Assembly: GCA_040878395.1 (NCBI GenBank)
Contig: JBBDMI010000012.1
Coordinates: 1 to 64,000 of the forward strand
DNA from: Candidatus Dependentiae bacterium
GTDB taxonomy: Bacteria; Babelota; Babeliae; Babelales; Vermiphilaceae
Reading direction: 5' to 3'
DNA: 64,000 bases
Shown here in pieces: positions 48,038-60,845 of this stretch. Made by a program: the position numbers and the translations under genes. Numbering within the stretch: position 1 is the first letter of the stretch; each line of letters begins with the position of its first letter. The notes below the pieces were generated by a model, which saw only the letters and a program-made list of their open reading frames with translations, was not told where the DNA came from and ran no database searches.

Positions 48038-49105
48038 TTACTCTTCTAAACCGGCTATATTGATATCAATAATATCTGCAACCGCTTCATCTTTCTTGTC
48101 TTCTTGCACAAGATCAATATCAATCTCATTTAGCCTTGCAGCCAAAGAAATATTTTTCCCCATCTTACCAATAGCCAATGACCGCTGGTCTTCATCAACC
48201 CATACATAGGCTTTATGCCCCTTTATCTGAACCTTGTTAACAACGGCCGGCTTTAAGGAATTTTTTATCATGGCCTCAGGAGATTCGTCCCAAGATAGCA
48301 CATCTATCTTTTCACCGCCAAGCTCTTTAAGTATTGGCTTGATACGTACGCCGCCAACCCCAACACAAGTCCCTACGGGATCAATGTTTTTGTCATTAGA
48401 TGCAACAACAACCTTAGATTTATAACCCGGCGCTCGTACGATTTTTTTTATTTCTACAAGCTTTTCAAAAACTTCTGGTATTTCTAACTCAAAAAGCTTG
48501 TATAAAAACTGGTCTGATGCACGGTCCAAAATAAGCTGATTTTCATTGCGGGGCTCAGAAAGAACTTCTTTAAGCAATGCACGAATCGGATATCCCACAA
48601 TACATTTGTCGGTTGAGCTCATTAAAGACTTTGGCAAAAAACCCATAGAATCTTGAAGCTTAACTGCTATGCCGCCGCGCTCACATTTGTGAACAACGCC
48701 GTGAACAATCGTACCTTCTTTTTCTTTGAATTCATTATAAACAGCCAACGCCTCAATTTTTCTAATTTGATTAGCGATGACCTGCTTAGCACGCAAGATC
48801 TCAATACGGCCTATCTTTCCATCAAAGGGAATCCAGGCTTTATCTCCAGCAGAAAGCTTTTCATCAATGTGCCTTGCTTTACGTGTGCTGATTTCAACAT
48901 CAGGATCCTGTACCGAAGATACAACTGTTTTTTCGACCTCAATGGCAACATCATCCTCTTTTTTGTCATGACGTGCTCGTAAAGGCAAGTTAGGGTATTT
49001 TTTTTCGTACGCAGCTAGCATACCCTCACAAATAATCGAATTTAAAGTTTCCTTGTCAAGACCGCGCTCTTCAACAAGTTCCTCTATAACAGCTGTTAAT
49101 CTCAC
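48038..49105 (-). CDS. nusA: Transcription factor NusA
   Basis: A 355-residue protein with the NusA N-terminal RNA-polymerase-binding domain (about 1-125), an S1 domain (about 130-200), and two KH domains (about 205-345; GVGGVRIKPILKELGGEKID and IGKMGKNISLAARL). It modulates pausing, termination and antitermination. It lacks the C-terminal acidic repeats of the E. coli protein, as most bacterial NusAs do. The start is a GTG with AAAGGATATT upstream. It is the first gene left of the putative origin and is transcribed away from it. Confidence 0.95.
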   Translation of the reverse strand: MRLTAVIEELVEERGLDKETLNSIICEGMLAAYEKKYPNLPLRARHDKKEDDVAIEVEKTVVSSVQDPDVEISTRKARHIDEKLSAGDKAWIPFDGKIGRIEILRAKQVIANQIRKIEALAVYNEFKEKEGTIVHGVVHKCERGGIAVKLQDSMGFLPKSLMSSTDKCIVGYPIRALLKEVLSEPRNENQLILDRASDQFLYKLFELEIPEVFEKLVEIKKIVRAPGYKSKVVVASNDKNIDPVGTCVGVGGVRIKPILKELGGEKIDVLSWDESPEAMIKNSLKPAVVNKVQIKGHKAYVWVDEDQRSLAIGKMGKNISLAARLNEIDIDLVQEDKKDEAVADIIDINIAGLEE

Positions 49106-49204
49106 AATATCCTTTGCCTACTGAAACATTTTTGAATTGTATAGATAAGTGTAACATAAAAAAACTGAAAATGAAGCTATTTCTTTTATGATGTTTCTTT
49201 CTAA

Positions 49205-49530
49205 CTTCTTATATATATATATATGTTTTTAATAAATATAATAGTAATAAGCAAAGACTTTTTTGGTGGATAACTTTTTCTTAAAGCTCTTATATAGTCT
49301 GCAGATCGAGCCATACAGGTGTCTTAGGATGGTGGATAAGTGGTGGATAACTTGTGGATAACTTGTGGATAACTCAAAAATAACCCTTGGATATCTTTAT
49401 ATAGAGGCACATAAAGAAAAATGTAAAAATAAGATCGCCCTTCAGGAGGGAGGATTGTTTTTTTGCCTAAAAGTTATCCACAAGTTATCCACCATCTATC
49501 CACCACTTATCCACCACTTATCCACCAGAC
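49205..49530. other. Putative replication origin (oriC) with two DnaA-box arrays
   Basis: Left array: DnaA-box-like 9-mers at 49331, 49342, 49353 and 49364, exactly 11 nt apart, reading GGTGGATAA twice then the perfect TGTGGATAA twice; a single extra GGTGGATAA is at 49265. Right array, inverted: 49474 (perfect TTATCCACA), 49485, 49496, 49507 and 49518, again 11 nt apart, ending in ACC. The arrays point away from each other across about 100 nt and are mirror images, with perfect boxes innermost. An AT-rich tract with a TATATATATA run (about 49208-49255) lies to the left as a candidate unwinding element. TTATCCACA is the established DnaA consensus; origin function is inferred. Confidence 0.82.
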
Positions 49531-49617: not shown

Positions 49618-50187
49618 TTATAGAGTAGATTCTTCTATGGCTTTAATGATGTCTTCTGTTAGGGTGGGGAGTCTTTTTGGGTCGCGTAAGATGTATGCCG
49701 GGTGAAATGTGGGCAGAAGTAAGAAATCTTTCATTTTTATATATTTCCCGCGTACTTGTGAAATAGATATTTGTGTGTCAAGTAATCCTTCAAGGGCGGA
49801 TGCTCCAAGGGTACAGATTACTTTAGGTTGAATTATTTGAATTTGTGCAAATAATAAGTTTCTGCCTTGGTGAAGTTCATCGGGATATGGCTTGCGGTTT
49901 TTTGGTGGGCGAACTTTTACTATATTGGTTATGAATACGTCTTTTCTCCTTACGTTGGCAGATTGTAGTATTTTGTCTAGTAGCTTTCCAGATCTGCCTA
50001 CAAATGGACGTTGTAGTTCATCTTCTTTTGCACCGGGGGCTTCGCCAATAAACATAAGGTTTGCATTGGAGCTTCCTTCTCCAAATATAATGCGATTACT
50101 TCCGCCTTGTACAAGAAGTTTGTTTGAATTTTTATAAGGTTCATACAGTTCTTCAAGTAGCTGCTGTTTATATATCTTTAAGTTCAT
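49618..50187 (-). CDS. Family-4-like uracil-DNA glycosylase without Fe-S cysteines
   Basis: A 189-residue UDG-superfamily protein. Family 4 motifs are clear: FGEGSSNANLMFIGEAPGAKED (motif 1), RPFVGRSGKLLD, NIVKVRPPKNRKP and LLPTFHPAYILRDP (motif with the active-site His). It removes uracil from DNA, feeding abasic sites to Nfo. Family 4 enzymes normally hold a [4Fe-4S] cluster with four Cys: a C-x2-C near the N-terminus, one in VKCRPP and one about 15 residues later. All four are missing; the only Cys is in PKVICTLG. The start at 50187 has no good ribosome-binding site. Confidence 0.9.
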   Translation of the reverse strand: MNLKIYKQQLLEELYEPYKNSNKLLVQGGSNRIIFGEGSSNANLMFIGEAPGAKEDELQRPFVGRSGKLLDKILQSANVRRKDVFITNIVKVRPPKNRKPYPDELHQGRNLLFAQIQIIQPKVICTLGASALEGLLDTQISISQVRGKYIKMKDFLLLPTFHPAYILRDPKRLPTLTEDIIKAIEESTL

Positions 50188-50263: not shown

Positions 50264-51793
50264 TTATCCCGCTACATACATATGTATCAGTTGTGACCAT
50301 TTGTTTTGTTTTGCAAATGGTATATGTGCATATGAGCTATGAATACGTCGCTCGGGAAAATAAATTGATATGCCACGAGCTTGATTTAAGTTTTTGCCAC
50401 ATACATTTGCAAGAACCAGTTTTCTGATGATTGCCCGTCCATGATCAAGCAGAGTCCTCAGTTCATTTGTTATTTTTTGTCCTCGTTTTGCATTAGTAAA
50501 ACTAAAATGTTTTAAATTGTATTCAAGGTTCACATATAGATGGTGCAGGTCAATGTAACTTGGTTCATCAAAGTGTGTACACAGTAGTTTGTTTTTGCTC
50601 GCACGAATTGCATTGTTCACGCTTTTGTTTTTTTGTAGCTGTAAGGCTTCAATGAGTAAAGTTGCAACATCATTTATGTTCTCTTGAAGAAAGCTAAGGT
50701 CGTCAAGAAAGATTGCTGATTGCGTATAGTCGTTTGTTATTTTATTATATGTTTCTTCATAGACATGTGCAATGTGACGAGCAAAATCACGCTTGTTGAG
50801 CGATCTATATAAAAATGGCTCAAGAACTTTTTGGTAATTCCACCCTGTGCCAAGTTCTACTTCTTGTGATCCAACCATAATATGAGCGTGCTGTTGTAAT
50901 AAATCACAAACTTCAATCATAGACATTAAGCATGCATCAAAGCCGATAATTGCAAATTTTTCATTATTTAGATATTTTTTACGAACAGCGCTTAAGGCAT
51001 AATCTAGTTTTTCATTTGTAAGATAGTTTCCGGCTGAGTCATCCCAGCAGATGCCCTTTGAGTTGTCTTCGCATTCTTCAGCATTTGATTTTGATAGGTT
51101 GCGTTCATTTGTTTGTAAATCATTATCAATTTCCTGCCAAGCAAGAGACTCCGGATCCTGTTGTTCAAGTAACCATAATATGTCTTGTGCATCATGATTG
51201 TGTTGAGCCGGATCAACATCTCCTAAGATACTTGTTGATCGATCAAGTTCAAGCATGTTTAAGGTTGGATTATATGTGAAGAGTTCTGTTGGGCTGATAA
51301 TTCTGCCATGATATGGATCAAGAGCACCGGTTCCATGATTCCAGAAAATAAGAGCGTAGTCATGTGCCGGATAATCTGTAATTGCCCATTGGCAAGCAGA
51401 TATTAATGTTTCAGGTTGTCCACTGTCCATGCGTTGTGTTGCAGGATCATAAGCATTAACGTGTAATATTTTATTTTTTTCAATATAGTAACGTCGAGTT
51501 ATTTTTTTGTTTCCTGCGATGCGAATATCCAGATGCACAACTATGTGGATATTTTCATTTGAGCCAATTGCCGCCATTTGTTTTATGTTGCGTGCTGCAA
51601 AGCTGCGTAAATCATTGTCGGCTGCCATATAAACAATGATGGAGGTTTGTCTTTTGGATGTTTTTTTATGATGTTTTTTTTCTTTGTTGTATGAAACCGC
51701 AGGCATAATATGTTGCTCTCGCGATAAAGCGAGATGCTCATAAGTAAATAAAGTAAAAACAATTAAACATGCTTTTATTGTTTTAAAATTCAT
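50264..51793 (-). CDS. Secreted clostripain-like (C11) cysteine peptidase
   Basis: A 509-residue protein with a signal peptide (about residues 1-22). The C11 fold starts at about 50 (SIIVYMAADNDL); the catalytic His153 is in FWNHGTG and the catalytic Cys288 in IIGFDACLMSMIEV, followed by VGSQEVELGTGWNY. The family cleaves after Arg or Lys. AAGGGATA precedes the ATG. The H-G then small-residue-Cys layout is the reference for the similar but unrelated-looking arrangement in the trio at 33-36.7 kb. An exported protease in this kind of organism may act in nutrition or on a host. Confidence 0.92.
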   Translation of the reverse strand: MNFKTIKACLIVFTLFTYEHLALSREQHIMPAVSYNKEKKHHKKTSKRQTSIIVYMAADNDLRSFAARNIKQMAAIGSNENIHIVVHLDIRIAGNKKITRRYYIEKNKILHVNAYDPATQRMDSGQPETLISACQWAITDYPAHDYALIFWNHGTGALDPYHGRIISPTELFTYNPTLNMLELDRSTSILGDVDPAQHNHDAQDILWLLEQQDPESLAWQEIDNDLQTNERNLSKSNAEECEDNSKGICWDDSAGNYLTNEKLDYALSAVRKKYLNNEKFAIIGFDACLMSMIEVCDLLQQHAHIMVGSQEVELGTGWNYQKVLEPFLYRSLNKRDFARHIAHVYEETYNKITNDYTQSAIFLDDLSFLQENINDVATLLIEALQLQKNKSVNNAIRASKNKLLCTHFDEPSYIDLHHLYVNLEYNLKHFSFTNAKRGQKITNELRTLLDHGRAIIRKLVLANVCGKNLNQARGISIYFPERRIHSSYAHIPFAKQNKWSQLIHMYVAG

Positions 51794-51879: not shown

Positions 51880-53001
51880 TTACTTTTGATACAACAGTTG
51901 GCTATTTGTTATTGCAAGAACAAGAGTCAACCCAAAGCTCAATTGAAAATCTAGAAAAAAAAGTAACGAAGGATTGATGAATAAAAAAAGACAAATAAGC
52001 ATGAGGATGGTATGGACGATATTGATTTGGAGCCCTGATATTTTGCAAAACATGCACCATAAAAATCCGGTATATGCTCGTGAAAATGAGATACTTGGCC
52101 AAGTGAGTAAAGCATAAAAACCTGTGACTAAAAGAGTAACTAATTGTTTTGAAAGGAGAGGGATAGGAATATATCGGAGGATTAACTGTAATAATAAAAT
52201 GAATATAATGAGATGCAATCCTGACCGGGCCAGATAATGTATAATGCCCCAATTTAAAAAGAGGTTTTTAATGTGCTGATACTGCTTTTTTATGCAAGAT
52301 CTATTGCCTAGAAAAATTGACGACAGTAATGTTATTGTATTAGGAGAACATTTTTTTTGTAGTTGATTTAATATGTTGTGTTTGAATGTATGTATAGATC
52401 TTTTAAGATGAAACCTTGGATGATAAAGAATGCTTGCCTTGTTATTTTTTAAAAACGTAGTTGCATGTATTCCTTCTTTTATTAAATAGGTATTAAAAGA
52501 ATTACTATTTTTTTTTCCTATTTTAATATCCTGGAGCATGATTGTGTCGCCAACTGTGTAATAAGGCTTTTGTTTTGTATAGCACTGTAGTCGCCAATTG
52601 AATCGTGAGGGGATGTTGTTCTTAGTGTTGGTTGTCGAAGTGACGTCAATTAAAACAGTATAATGATATAGGTCGTGCTGCACGGGATCAATATCATAAA
52701 CCGATCCGGTTATATTTACTATTTGATTGCGAATGAGAGATGCATGGCAATTGTGTCTATACAGCTGAAATTGTAAGCGGGTGAATCCTAGTACAAAAAA
52801 AATAATACACAAAAAAAATGGTTTCCATGAAGATGAATTTAGTGTAATAAATATTGAAATAAACCAAAAGACTGAAAATATTATCCATTGATATGTATAA
52901 GCAAAACTGATGCCCAGCAAAAAAGAGCTTGTGAATGCAAGCCATAAGATCAGGCGATTTGCGTGAGATTTAACTATTGATTTTTTGTCATGTTCTTTCA
53001 T
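51880..53001 (-). CDS. ComEC/Rec2-like DNA-uptake channel, short
   Basis: A 373-residue membrane protein. N-terminal hydrophobic segments (about 15-70), an OB-like soluble domain (about 85-195, IVNITGSVYDID and TVGDTIMLQDIKIGK), then the Competence domain with HYLARSGLHLIIF near 250 and further membrane segments. ComEC carries DNA across the inner membrane in natural transformation. Known proteins reach 600-800 residues with a C-terminal metallo-beta-lactamase-like domain; here the protein ends within or soon after the Competence domain, so the C-terminal half is missing. No split partner is adjacent. Confidence 0.78.
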   Translation of the reverse strand: MKEHDKKSIVKSHANRLILWLAFTSSFLLGISFAYTYQWIIFSVFWFISIFITLNSSSWKPFFLCIIFFVLGFTRLQFQLYRHNCHASLIRNQIVNITGSVYDIDPVQHDLYHYTVLIDVTSTTNTKNNIPSRFNWRLQCYTKQKPYYTVGDTIMLQDIKIGKKNSNSFNTYLIKEGIHATTFLKNNKASILYHPRFHLKRSIHTFKHNILNQLQKKCSPNTITLLSSIFLGNRSCIKKQYQHIKNLFLNWGIIHYLARSGLHLIIFILLLQLILRYIPIPLLSKQLVTLLVTGFYALLTWPSISFSRAYTGFLWCMFCKISGLQINIVHTILMLICLFLFINPSLLFFLDFQLSFGLTLVLAITNSQLLYQK

Positions 53002-53704: not shown

Positions 53705-56326
53705 ATGAAAGCTTTTGGCTCTATTGAGCATTATACATTAGAAAATGGTCTTCAAATAATTATTAATCCTGACTCATCAACACCGAAGGTTTCTGTACAA
53801 CTTTGGTATAATGTCGGCTCAAAAGATGAAAAAGATGGAGAAAAAGGGTTAGCCCACTTGCTTGAGCATATGATTTTCAAGGGAACTCATAAGCTTTCTG
53901 AATCCGATATCAATATGATTACTCAAAAATTATCCGGCTATACCAATGCATTTACTTCATATGATTATACAGGATATTTATTTGATTTTCCCAAGCAGCA
54001 TTGGCATGCTGCTCTTGAAATGCTTTCTGATTGCATGACTAATTGTACATTTCCTGATGATATGCTGCAGTCTGAGCTAAAAGCAGTGATTCAAGAACTT
54101 AAAATGTATAAAGACAATTATGTTTCAAGTTTGATCGAGTCGATGACAAGTTCGGCATTTTCTGACCACCCTTATCATCACCCTATTATTGGTTATAAGC
54201 AAGATTTATGGAGTATAACGCGAGACGGATTAGTTGCGTTTTATAAAAAGCATTATAAACCAAATAATGCAACTTTGGTTGTGGTCGGTGATGTTGATCC
54301 GGCAAAGGCGCTTGCTGAAATAAAAAATTATTTTGGAGCAATTCCTGCGGGCGATAAGATTGAAAAAATAGAACATTATGCACAACAAGATATGCAATCT
54401 ACAAGCGCTACCTTGTATCGTGATATTCAGCGTCCATTATTGATGTATGCTTGGCGCGTGCCGGGGATTAAAGAAAACAGTGAATTTTTGTTGAGTGTGT
54501 TAGCGCACATAGTTGGTCAATCACAAAACTCAAGGTTGTATCGATTGTTGGTTGATGATCTGCAACTGGCAACTGATGTGAGTATGTTTTTGGATGACCT
54601 TTTTGAGCATGGTTTGCTCTTTTTTCATGTTGACCCGGTGGATGAAAATGCAGTTAAGGAGATCGAAATACAGATAAAAAAGGTGCTTATAGCATTGCAA
54701 GAGTCTGTTGATGATGATGAAATTTCTCGCGCAATCAAGCAAGTGAGTATGGGGCATTTAGTTCAAGGTGAAACATTGCAAGAGCGCGCTTATATGATAG
54801 GCAAAGGTTTTCTTGCAACAAAAAATCCAAATTATATTAATGAGTTTATTCAAACAGATGAACGTACAATAAAAGAGCAAATAAAAACGTTAATATCCAA
54901 CTGTTTGCGTGCAACAACGATGCATAAAGGTGTAATAGCACCATTGCCTGATACAGAAAAAGAGCATTGGCTTTCCGTTCAAGAAGAAAGTGATCGAACT
55001 GATGCTGTTATTTTATCACGTAAAGTGCGCGAGACTGAAATTGAGCCGGGTAAGTTGGTACATCAAATAGACACGAAAAAAATGAATCAGTTTGTTGTAC
55101 CACAGCATGAGCGATTTGATTTGCAAAATGGTTTAAAAGTTCTTTTTTCTCCTACGGGGGGACAAAAAATTGAACTGATTTTAGAATTTGAATCGCAATT
55201 TTATTGTGATCCGGAGCATTTACAGGGCTTGTGTAATTTTACCTTTGCACTGCTTGAAGAAGGCACTAAAAAGTTTAGTAAAACAAAGCTTGTGCAAGAA
55301 CTAGCCTCACGGGGAATGCATTTAGAGGTTGGAGCCGGTTCCATTTCGTTGACTTTGTTAAAAGAAGATTTAGATTTTGCATTGCAAGTGATAGATGAGT
55401 TGGTGGAAAATGCATTATTTGATGAAAGAGCTATTGAAAAAGTACGAGCACAGATTCTATCTGATATTGATGATTTTTGGGATGAGCCTAATCAGTTTAT
55501 AAAACAAATTGCACGAGAGCATATTTATCAGGATCACCCTTATAAAAAATCATTCTTAGGGACAAAGGAGTCTGTTGCTAAGATCAATCGTGATGATTTA
55601 TTGCATTATTATAAACAGCATGTAAGGCCCAACAATGCTTGTTTGGCAGTTGTAGGTGCATTTGATGAAAAAAATCTTGAACTAAAAGTCCAAGAAATAT
55701 TCAATCAATGGGAGCCGGTGCAATCAGTTCGAATTGAATATCCTCATCTTGTAATGCCTAAGCAAAAAAATATTATTCATCCTATTGTTCGTGACCAGGT
55801 TGTTCTTGCATTTACAGGGCTTTCAGTTGACCGAAAAAATATAAAATATGACCCTCTTTTGGTGTTCGATCAAATTTTTGCCGGTGGTGTTACCGGATCT
55901 ATGAGTTCACATTTATTTCAATTGCGTGAGCAAACTGGTCTATTTTATACGATTGGTGGTTCTTTGGTATTTGGTGCCGGCCATCAACCGGGAATGTTCT
56001 TTATTAAGACAATCGTTTCACAAGATCGCTTGCATGAAGCTGAAAAAGTTATTAAGCAAACAATGCAATCGTCCGCACAGAAAGTTGACTCACAAGAGTT
56101 CCGTGCTGCAAAAGATGCATTGTCTCATTCTTTAATTGATCAGTTTGCAACACAAAAAGGTATTGCTCACAGCTTCTTGCTCATCGATCGACTCTCATTG
56201 CCAAAAGATTATTATGCTCAACGAGTGCATATGATTGAACAAGTCGATAGAAATGAAATGATGAAGGCGGTCCAAGAAGTTATGGATGTTGATAATATCA
56301 GCACAATAAAAGTTGGTCGATTGTAG
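53705..56326 (+). CDS. M16 family zinc peptidase 1
   Basis: An 873-residue protein made of two M16 modules. The first has the inverted zinc motif H-L-L-E-H at residues 51-55 (LAHLLEHMIFKGT) and the downstream Glu in VIQELKM; the second module lacks the motif, as is usual for the non-catalytic partner half. The family degrades peptides or processes exported proteins. At this start no signal peptide is seen, unlike the related protein at 58164. GAGGAAAT precedes the ATG. The two M16 proteins share long identical phrases (VPKVSVQLWYNVGSKDEKDG in the second; nearly the same here), so they are duplicates. Confidence 0.93.
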   Translation: MKAFGSIEHYTLENGLQIIINPDSSTPKVSVQLWYNVGSKDEKDGEKGLAHLLEHMIFKGTHKLSESDINMITQKLSGYTNAFTSYDYTGYLFDFPKQHWHAALEMLSDCMTNCTFPDDMLQSELKAVIQELKMYKDNYVSSLIESMTSSAFSDHPYHHPIIGYKQDLWSITRDGLVAFYKKHYKPNNATLVVVGDVDPAKALAEIKNYFGAIPAGDKIEKIEHYAQQDMQSTSATLYRDIQRPLLMYAWRVPGIKENSEFLLSVLAHIVGQSQNSRLYRLLVDDLQLATDVSMFLDDLFEHGLLFFHVDPVDENAVKEIEIQIKKVLIALQESVDDDEISRAIKQVSMGHLVQGETLQERAYMIGKGFLATKNPNYINEFIQTDERTIKEQIKTLISNCLRATTMHKGVIAPLPDTEKEHWLSVQEESDRTDAVILSRKVRETEIEPGKLVHQIDTKKMNQFVVPQHERFDLQNGLKVLFSPTGGQKIELILEFESQFYCDPEHLQGLCNFTFALLEEGTKKFSKTKLVQELASRGMHLEVGAGSISLTLLKEDLDFALQVIDELVENALFDERAIEKVRAQILSDIDDFWDEPNQFIKQIAREHIYQDHPYKKSFLGTKESVAKINRDDLLHYYKQHVRPNNACLAVVGAFDEKNLELKVQEIFNQWEPVQSVRIEYPHLVMPKQKNIIHPIVRDQVVLAFTGLSVDRKNIKYDPLLVFDQIFAGGVTGSMSSHLFQLREQTGLFYTIGGSLVFGAGHQPGMFFIKTIVSQDRLHEAEKVIKQTMQSSAQKVDSQEFRAAKDALSHSLIDQFATQKGIAHSFLLIDRLSLPKDYYAQRVHMIEQVDRNEMMKAVQEVMDVDNISTIKVGRL

Positions 56327-57933: not shown

Positions 57934-58163
57934 TGCAAAATACGCATGCTGTTTTTAATTTTTTTGCATCTTGCTTATGCCAACATTCGTTTGTGTAGGT
58001 TGCACGTTTTGGATTATAAATTGAGGATCAGTGTGTATTTGTTTGCATGATGGACAAAAGAAATATACATGTGATTATTTTCTTAAACATTGTTATAATC
58101 CTTTTTTTGAAGTTAGTGCAAAAAAGCATTTTAATTTATACTATCGATACAGGAGAAAGGCAA

Positions 58164-60845
58164 ATGAGAAAATTATTATTGATTGGTTGCTTATTACAAC
58201 CTATTTTTGTTTCAATTCAAGGAAAATCACCTACTATGCATATTGATAAAAAAGTTCTAAAAAATGGTTTAACTGTTTTAGTCCGTCCAAATCATACAGT
58301 ACCGAAAGTTTCTGTTCAACTTTGGTATAACGTCGGTTCAAAAGATGAAAAAGATGGCGAAAAAGGGATTGCGCATCTTATTGAACATATGATGTTTAAA
58401 GGCACAAAAGAGATGCTCTCCGAAACTGATATCAAAGTTATAGCGCATATGCTCTCAGGTAACTGTAATGCATTTACTTCATATGACTATACCGGTTATT
58501 TATTCAATATGCCATCACATAATTGGCGACAAGTTTTGCCTATTATGGCGGACTGCATGGTCAATACTTCATTTAAAGATGATCACTTAAATTCAGAAAT
58601 GAAAGCGGTTATTCAAGAGCTTAAAATGCTCAAAGATAATCATACACGGTCCGTTGTTTATAATTTGTTAACCTCTATCTTTCCGGATCATCCATATCAT
58701 TATCCATTGATTGGTTACAAACAGGATTTATGGTCGGTAACGGGTGCAGATTTAGAACGTTTTTATAAAAAACATTATTTGCCAAATAACGCAACATTAA
58801 TAGTTGTAGGCGATGTTGACGCTCAAGAGGTATTTACATTAGCGGAACAGTATTTTGGTGCTATACCTGCGAATTTTGATTATAAAAGAGAGGATTTCTA
58901 TCACAACCCTGATATTGCATCAAAGTCAGTTTCAATTTATAGAGATGTTCAACAACCAATTGGTATCTTTGCTTTTGTTGTTCCAGGCGCAAAAGAAAAA
59001 CTGGCCCATTTAACTGATGTGATATCAAATATTTTAGGGGGTGGTAAAAGTTCACGTTTATATAAAAAACTAATTGATGAACGGCAGTTGGTAACATCAC
59101 TTGATACTATGTGTCTTGACCTGTTTGATCATGGACTTTTTTTGGTACTGTTTACTCCAAAACGTGAACAAGATATTGATGAAATAGAGTTTGTTCTTTT
59201 TGGTGAAATCAATGACATTGTACGCAATGGTGTAAATGATAAAGAGCTGCAAACGGCACTTAAAAAAGCAAAAATGAGCGAATATAGTTTGCTTGAAAAA
59301 AATGAAAAACAGGCATATGTGATTGGTAAATATCAATTAGCTTGTAATGATCCGGGTTATGTATTTACTTATTTAGATATTCCAAAAGATGCTTTGCAAA
59401 AAGATATACAAACCTTTTTGAGTTATTATTGTCGTCCAAGTGTTATGCATAAAGGATTAGTATTGCCATTGCCTGAAAATGATAAGGCACAATGGTTAAG
59501 CTTCCAAGAAGCTTCAGATTTACAAGATGCACGTATTTTATCGGCTCGTCAGCGTGAAACACAAGTTGAAATGCCAAAATATGCGCAAAAGATTCAAATT
59601 CAACAACCAACTGATTTCAATTTTCCTAAAGCGCAAGAAGCGCAACTTGAAAATGGCATGAAACTATTTTGGTATAAAAATGATCAAACTCCAAAAATAA
59701 ATCTTGTTTTAGAATTTAAAGCAAAATCTTGGAATGATCCGCAAGATAAACAAGGTTTGTTTGCATTTGTTACCCGTATGATGACTGAGGGGACAAAAAA
59801 TTATACGGCAAATGAACTTGCCGAGGAATTTGAGTCTCGAGGCATGGCTATTTCAATGTATCCTGGTGGTATTTCAATGTCTCTGTTGCATGAGGATCTG
59901 CAAAAAGGTCTTGAATTATTGAATGAACTGTTAACCAATGCAATATTCTCAATTGATGCGATCGAAAAAGTTCGCGCTCAAATGTTATCCGAGTTGAAAC
60001 AGTTTTGGGACAACCCAGACTATTTTTCAAGTCAATTAATGAGTGAAATGGTTTATAAAGGTCATCCATTTAGTAAAAATAGTATGGGAACCGTTGAGTC
60101 TGTTTTATCAATCACTCAAAAAGATTTAATCGATTTTTATAACAGTTATATTTCCCCCGATGGTGCAAAATGTGCAATTGTGGGTGATTTGCGTGGTTAT
60201 GATATAAAGGCTGAAGTGCAAAAAACATTAGGTAATTGGAATGGGTCTCAAATTGATGAGCTTGAATTTCCTGAGGTGCAAGATGCATGTGCTCAGGAAA
60301 AAGTTTATCCTATTAATAGAGATCAAGTTACTTTAATGATGGCAAAAAAATCGATTGATCGTAAAAATAGTGATTATGATAAACTACTTATTTTCGATCA
60401 AATTTTTGGTGGTTCATTGCATTCACGTTTGTATCAACTGCGTGAACAAAGTGGCCTTTTTTATACTATAAACGGTTCGACTATTGCTCAATCAGGCCTG
60501 CAACCGGGAATGGTTGTTGTGCGAACTTTAGTATCCAAAGATCGCGCCCATGAGGCGGAAAAAGCAATAAAAGAGATGATGAAATCCGTAAGTGAAACAT
60601 TGACTGATCAAGAGATTGCAGAGGCAAAAAATGCTTTAGCAAGTAATCTAGTAAGCTTTTTTGATTCGAATGCAAATATTGCTCAAGCTTTTCTATTTTT
60701 AGATAAATATGGATTTAATGCTGATTACTTTGACCATCGTGCAAAAAATATTGCACAGATAACGTTGCAGGAAGTAAAAGATGCTGCAAGTAGATATTTA
60801 TTACCAGATGAAATGTGTGTGTTGCGTATTGGGCGTTTGGATTAA
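58164..60845 (+). CDS. M16 family zinc peptidase 2 (exported)
   Basis: An 893-residue protein with a signal peptide (about residues 1-20) and two M16 modules. The zinc motif H-L-I-E-H is at residues 71-75 (IAHLIEHMMFKGT) with the downstream Glu in VIQELKML; the C-terminal module lacks it. The ATG at 58164 is preferred over earlier in-frame starts because AGGAGAAAGG is right upstream and it begins the signal peptide. It is a paralog of the protein at 53705, which lacks the signal, so one member may act in the envelope and the other inside. A strong terminator follows. Confidence 0.94.
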   Translation: MRKLLLIGCLLQPIFVSIQGKSPTMHIDKKVLKNGLTVLVRPNHTVPKVSVQLWYNVGSKDEKDGEKGIAHLIEHMMFKGTKEMLSETDIKVIAHMLSGNCNAFTSYDYTGYLFNMPSHNWRQVLPIMADCMVNTSFKDDHLNSEMKAVIQELKMLKDNHTRSVVYNLLTSIFPDHPYHYPLIGYKQDLWSVTGADLERFYKKHYLPNNATLIVVGDVDAQEVFTLAEQYFGAIPANFDYKREDFYHNPDIASKSVSIYRDVQQPIGIFAFVVPGAKEKLAHLTDVISNILGGGKSSRLYKKLIDERQLVTSLDTMCLDLFDHGLFLVLFTPKREQDIDEIEFVLFGEINDIVRNGVNDKELQTALKKAKMSEYSLLEKNEKQAYVIGKYQLACNDPGYVFTYLDIPKDALQKDIQTFLSYYCRPSVMHKGLVLPLPENDKAQWLSFQEASDLQDARILSARQRETQVEMPKYAQKIQIQQPTDFNFPKAQEAQLENGMKLFWYKNDQTPKINLVLEFKAKSWNDPQDKQGLFAFVTRMMTEGTKNYTANELAEEFESRGMAISMYPGGISMSLLHEDLQKGLELLNELLTNAIFSIDAIEKVRAQMLSELKQFWDNPDYFSSQLMSEMVYKGHPFSKNSMGTVESVLSITQKDLIDFYNSYISPDGAKCAIVGDLRGYDIKAEVQKTLGNWNGSQIDELEFPEVQDACAQEKVYPINRDQVTLMMAKKSIDRKNSDYDKLLIFDQIFGGSLHSRLYQLREQSGLFYTINGSTIAQSGLQPGMVVVRTLVSKDRAHEAEKAIKEMMKSVSETLTDQEIAEAKNALASNLVSFFDSNANIAQAFLFLDKYGFNADYFDHRAKNIAQITLQEVKDAASRYLLPDEMCVLRIGRLD

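Follow-up and report, generated by a model that had tools for sequence, protein, structure and literature searches.

The locus and its genes

The window, i.e., the whole stretch of DNA analysed here, is the first 64 kb of an 89,150 bp contig (C12) of Candidatus Dependentiae bacterium (Babelota). Two opposed arrays of DnaA boxes, a lone box and an AT-rich tract (49205-49530) sit between nusA-infB and a gene of the uracil-DNA glycosylase (UDG) superfamily, next to which is a gene for a clostripain-family (C11) peptidase. NusA puts the genome in this phylum: it has 86% identity to its best named relative, and the named matches at 55% identity or more are Dependentiae/TM6/Babeliales. The features, in order, are:

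48038..49105, minus strand: nusA (Pfam NusA_N, KH_5), neighbour on the side of the putative DNA unwinding element (DUE)
49206..49250, no strand: AT-rich tract, putative DUE, from the sequence and a homologous tract in relatives
49239..49250, plus strand: DnaA-trio-like run TAA-TAG-TAA-TAA, TAATAGTAATAA, four trios read 3'-[G/A]A[T/A]-5' away from the lone box
49265..49273, minus strand: lone DnaA box next to the DUE, TTATCCACC (R1-like), with the trio run 14 nt and the left array 66 nt away
49331..49372, minus strand: left array, four DnaA boxes with 9-mers starting at 49331, 49342, 49353 and 49364 (11-nt period)
49373..49473, no strand: central spacer between the arrays, without boxes
49474..49526, plus strand: right array, five DnaA boxes with 9-mers starting at 49474, 49485, 49496, 49507 and 49518 (11-nt period)
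49618..50187, minus strand: UDG-superfamily gene (Pfam PF03167) on the other side, a frequent neighbour
50264..51793, minus strand: C11 peptidase gene (Pfam PF03415), a frequent neighbour

Farther along, a ComEC-type competence gene (51880-53001) covers about half of its Pfam profile and may be broken or split, and reading of the sequence revealed two large, similar-looking zinc-protease-like open frames lying close together (53705-56326 and 58047-60845).

Opposed arrays of DnaA boxes

A preliminary description had proposed a chromosomal origin here, with four boxes on the left and five on the right, oppositely oriented and at an exact step of 11 nt, and every step does measure 11 nt. It also held that the innermost boxes match the consensus perfectly while the outer ones vary at the end base. 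This is correct as far as it goes: the perfect box TTATCCACA is found at the two inner positions of the left array and the innermost position of the right one, and all other array boxes have C as their last base, but box 49496 (CTATCCACC) differs additionally in its first base. The cluster is intergenic and well beyond chance, with seven pairs of zero-mismatch boxes spaced by 11 nt, where dinucleotide shuffling gives an expectation of 0.01 for the window. A pattern search for three-box arrays, allowing up to three mismatches, gave no second copy anywhere in the 1.34-Mb, 97%-complete assembly. A terminator-like hairpin considered in the central spacer folded no better than shuffled sequence. 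The DnaA of the same genome aligns to domain IV of the E. coli protein (1j1v) with the motif GGRDH[ST]TV, as expected of a protein that reads such boxes.

The lone box, the trios and the AT-rich tract

The tenth, lone box and the trio run were absent from the preliminary description, which did report an AT-rich tract beside the arrays. This tract lies past the lone box, as does a homologous one in nearly every relative aligned, so that a candidate unwinding element adjoins the boxes, as in an oriC. The four trios are on the strand expected for a BUS module and, at 14 nt from the lone box, within the published definition of at least three trios within 16 bp. Published BUS spacers peak at 10-13 bp and end by 16 bp; a tandem pair of boxes is the commonest form (57%), and single-box forms likewise count as BUS (PMC8287927). 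In the window there is a single DUE-proximal box and no tandem pair at the trios.

The same arrangement recurs among relatives. In 53 of 72 genomes, against 1.1 expected from shuffling, a run of at least three trios begins no more than 20 nt from the lone box, while no such run follows any of 189 inner boxes, and the spacer between lone box and trios is 13-14 nt in 45 of these 53. At the other end of the AT tract, towards nusA, 34 of the 72 have an inverted trio run and some genomes an inverted DnaA box as well (see loci L045, L151, L152 and L153), as if a second unwinding module faced the first.

GC skew and the position of dnaA

The preliminary description had also noted an apparent flip in base composition at this point and that neither dnaA nor dnaN was adjacent. 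The flip is sustained: the skew of contig C12 (one of the 16 in the assembly) is negative from 1 to 49 kb and positive from 50 to 89 kb, with the cumulative minimum at 49,121. The dnaA gene is on a separate contig (C16:22.3 kb), where the skew is negative throughout 20 kb and neither a flip nor an array was detected; an equally strong array beside dnaA, which had been named as evidence against an origin here, is thus not there. It has to be kept in mind that GC skew records replication starts over evolutionary time and not those of the present day.

Five near-complete genomes (Noda2021, Chromulinavorax destructans, Babela massiliensis, G077 and G074; our set G029, G053, G033, G077 and G074, loci L098-L117, L176-L215, L243-L254 and L314-L333) behave in the same way. 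The skew flips at nusA in all five, with the minimum at the arrays as in the window contig, and in all five dnaA is some 20-100 kb from the opposite flip (the skew maximum), near the terminus, although terminus positions were read from sampled stretches and not from complete curves. In Noda2021 (AP025250) the sampled skew is positive from 1,159 kb round to ca. 486 kb and negative from 488 to 1,118 kb, with the array at 1,135.7 kb and dnaA at 431 kb. In C. destructans (1,174,272 bp) the array (651,690-651,939) falls within the published origin (651,641-652,233), the flip is at the array with a cumulative minimum at 652,126, the opposite flip is near 88 kb and dnaA is at 0.4 kb. In B. massiliensis (1,118,422 bp) the flip is beside nusA, at ca. 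652-653 kb, and dnaA is at 0.5 kb. G077 and G074 repeat the behaviour of the other three; one stretch of the latter (G074:C8:600001-620000, L330) is all N (masked) and was excluded. With dnaA this close to the skew maximum in every case, the gene should be at its lowest dose at times of most active replication.

These data bear on an origin upstream of dnaA, which has been published as a prediction for B. massiliensis (PMC4378268). Origins linked to dnaA are the commonest case in bacteria. However, the skew of B. massiliensis is positive on both sides of dnaA, rising at ca. 652 kb by nusA and falling near 98 kb, and its first 14 kb contain a single box-like match, which falls within the reading frame of dnaA. 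As the dnaA of the window genome also lacks both flip and array, we regard this location as extremely improbable.

Another alternative is that the arrays bind DnaA for regulation or titration, as a datA/DARS-like site or a DnaA-controlled promoter of nusA-infB, and that replication starts elsewhere. DnaA is a known transcription regulator and the arrays are directly upstream of nusA-infB. Yet a regulatory site would need neither a trio run nor an AT tract, array and skew minimum coincide in all the near-complete genomes tested, and the window genome has no second array. This explanation thus appears improbable, if somewhat less so than the previous one.

Conservation across the phylum

Related genomes had been expected to conserve the arrays, and they do. 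The mirrored pair of exact boxes, GTGGATAA-N88..118-TTATCCAC, is present in 49 of 101 genomes of the phylum, and the reversed control in none. Out of 30 fetched loci with exact boxes, 26 have nusA adjoining the arrays; the other four are cut off by a contig end, and in them the opposite flank is present with its UDG or C11 gene. When drift of the box sequence was allowed, at least two boxes per arm were found in 78 of 81 nusA-upstream regions examined, and at least three per arm in 70; clear arrays were absent from the remaining three (G039, G041 and G066). One genome (G028:C8:12503-12830, L026 / L122) has an otherwise normal origin with an expanded array upstream of it, made up of 15 boxes at 11 nt and, after them, five further boxes of the same orientation. 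Our literature search found no paper tying oriC to nusA/infB.

Spacing is conserved as well. The start-to-start distance between the arrays clusters at 104-111 and 116-122 nt in most relatives. The lone box, found in 72 of the 78 array-bearing regions, is 65-69 nt from the array in 60 of them, 54-56 nt in eight and at other distances in four. The two main distances differ by one helical turn, which fits the observation that a one-turn change in the spacing of oriC boxes is tolerated and a partial turn is harmful (PMC4285127). A search for conserved motifs in the centre and in the gap gave only weak enrichment of GATC/TCGA, that of the gap between lone box and array being centred on GATC (28 genomes vs 10.4). 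It showed no clear HU/IHF-family binding site in this gap; two HU/IHF-family genes exist.

Iterons, too, are short direct repeats, and the arrays might be those of a plasmid or phage origin, or a tandem repeat arisen by chance. Here, though, it is the DnaA box that is repeated, the arrays and the flanking core genes nusA-infB are conserved together across the families of the phylum, and no plasmid-type replication initiator gene lies beside the arrays in relatives. Together with the low chance expectation given above, this leaves very little room for either origin of the repeats.

Changes in DnaA and in its boxes

The boxes of a genome drift in concert, both arms together, and different genomes have variants such as TTATCAACA, TTATCGACA, TTATGAACA, TTATGCACC/TTATCAACC and TTCTCCAAC, among others. 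We compared them with DnaA, taking the contacts of E. coli domain IV from the literature (PMC8235120, PMC7561715, PMC5043019). Asp433 of the E. coli protein is a base-contact residue that is highly conserved among bacteria (PMC8235120). Its equivalent is Asn in seven genomes (G026, G027, G048, G049, G063, G072 and G100), and all seven have G at box position 5 or 6, albeit in few boxes of G048. Genomes with Asp have mainly CC, CA or TA at positions 5-6, with only stray single octamers of the G type. For G072 the Asn was predicted from the boxes before its DnaA was extracted, and the prediction held. In G064, which also has Asn and would be expected to have boxes of the G type, no array of the searched form was seen, and nusA was not found in the assembly.

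Fisher's test of this covariation, which ignores relatedness, gave p = 2.8e-6. On a tree of the DnaA AAA+ domain (without G072) each of the two traits changed four times, and three of the four independent contrasts go in the same direction with none against (phylogenetic sign test, p = 0.25); four contrasts are too few for the covariation to reach phylogenetic significance. Our hypothesis is that Asp would accept a hydrogen bond from C or A and not from G, and that Asn could donate one. We keep this chemical reading as a hypothesis because the contacts reported for Asp433 in the literature concern position 7. A distinct change of box and helix, single so far, was seen in G023 (L088, L138), with boxes TTCTCCAAC and the DnaA motif GGRDHTCV.

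A probable chromosome origin at nusA

Judging from the sequence, the site is very probably where replication of the chromosome starts in this Candidatus Dependentiae bacterium, a little-known parasite. The origin proposed in the preliminary description is supported by the skew minimum, by conservation throughout the phylum and by the lack of an array beside dnaA. We are highly confident that the site is an oriC at which DnaA, bound to the lone box and the opposed arrays, would open the DUE side for helicase loading. In the mechanism that we infer, DnaA would bind the lone box and both arrays through domain IV, and two facing filaments would form along the boxes spaced by 11 nt. The filament on the DUE side would have its anchor in the lone box, some five or six helical turns away from the array, and would pass onto the DnaA-trios of one strand, upon which the AT-rich tract would open and the helicase be loaded. 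A protein of the HU/IHF family could bend the DNA in the 55/67-nt gap.

A broader picture can be offered more tentatively, and we consider it slightly less than evenly likely. The Dependentiae would keep oriC at nusA and dnaA near the terminus, DnaA would have repeatedly switched specificity (Asp433 to Asn, with G in the box) with the whole origin rewritten in step, and the unwinding element, bounded by trios on both strands, could allow symmetrical loading of both helicases.

An origin had been predicted at this locus once already, in C. destructans. What is new is the definition of the origin for the phylum as a whole, the near-consensus, strictly periodic arrays, the location at nusA with dnaA close to the terminus, the doubly bounded unwinding element and the apparent repeated switch of specificity. 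An origin is thereby defined for an entire candidate phylum with four reported isolates, and the published Babela origin is corrected. The spacings (11 nt; 55 or 67 nt; 13-14 nt) give sharp, testable rules for the geometry of DnaA filaments. The concerted rewriting of 8-10 boxes and one DnaA residue amounts to a natural experiment on a question usually approached by mutagenesis, and makes this group a ready system in which to study the joint change of an initiator and the sites it binds.

Comparison with known origins

The predicted origin of C. destructans (PMC6561590) is among the closest known systems, at the same locus and with homologous arrays upstream of nusA. It was called from skew and one box motif (PMC6561590), and the passages of that paper we found do not describe the arrays, trios, gene context or conservation.

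The best reading of the site is a DnaA-dependent oriC, since it would join the topology of E. coli oriC to an unwinding module of the BUS type. The preliminary description called the layout unusual, which does not hold: opposed arrays of head-to-tail boxes 2 bp apart are the principle of E. coli oriC, which likewise has the DUE at one end, then a lone strong box, head-to-tail boxes and an array in the opposite orientation (PMC4285127, PMC8235120). As in E. coli, the DUE-proximal box is oriented like the array nearest to it. The unusual features are instead the near-consensus sequence and strict periodicity of the boxes, the location of the origin at nusA throughout the phylum and the position of dnaA near the terminus. 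In the arrays of E. coli most sites are of low affinity and depart from the consensus, with single strong boxes as caps, whereas here nearly all array boxes are near-consensus and keep a strict 11-nt period. The location differs too, being mnmG/mioC in E. coli and nusA-infB here. In common with the BUS of Bacillus subtilis and others, the site has a strong box separated by 13-14 nt from three or more trios, which are on the expected strand and are followed by an AT-rich tract. It departs from the usual BUS in having one lone DUE box in place of a tandem pair and, in 34 of the 72 genomes, an inverted trio run that also delimits the AT tract at its other end.
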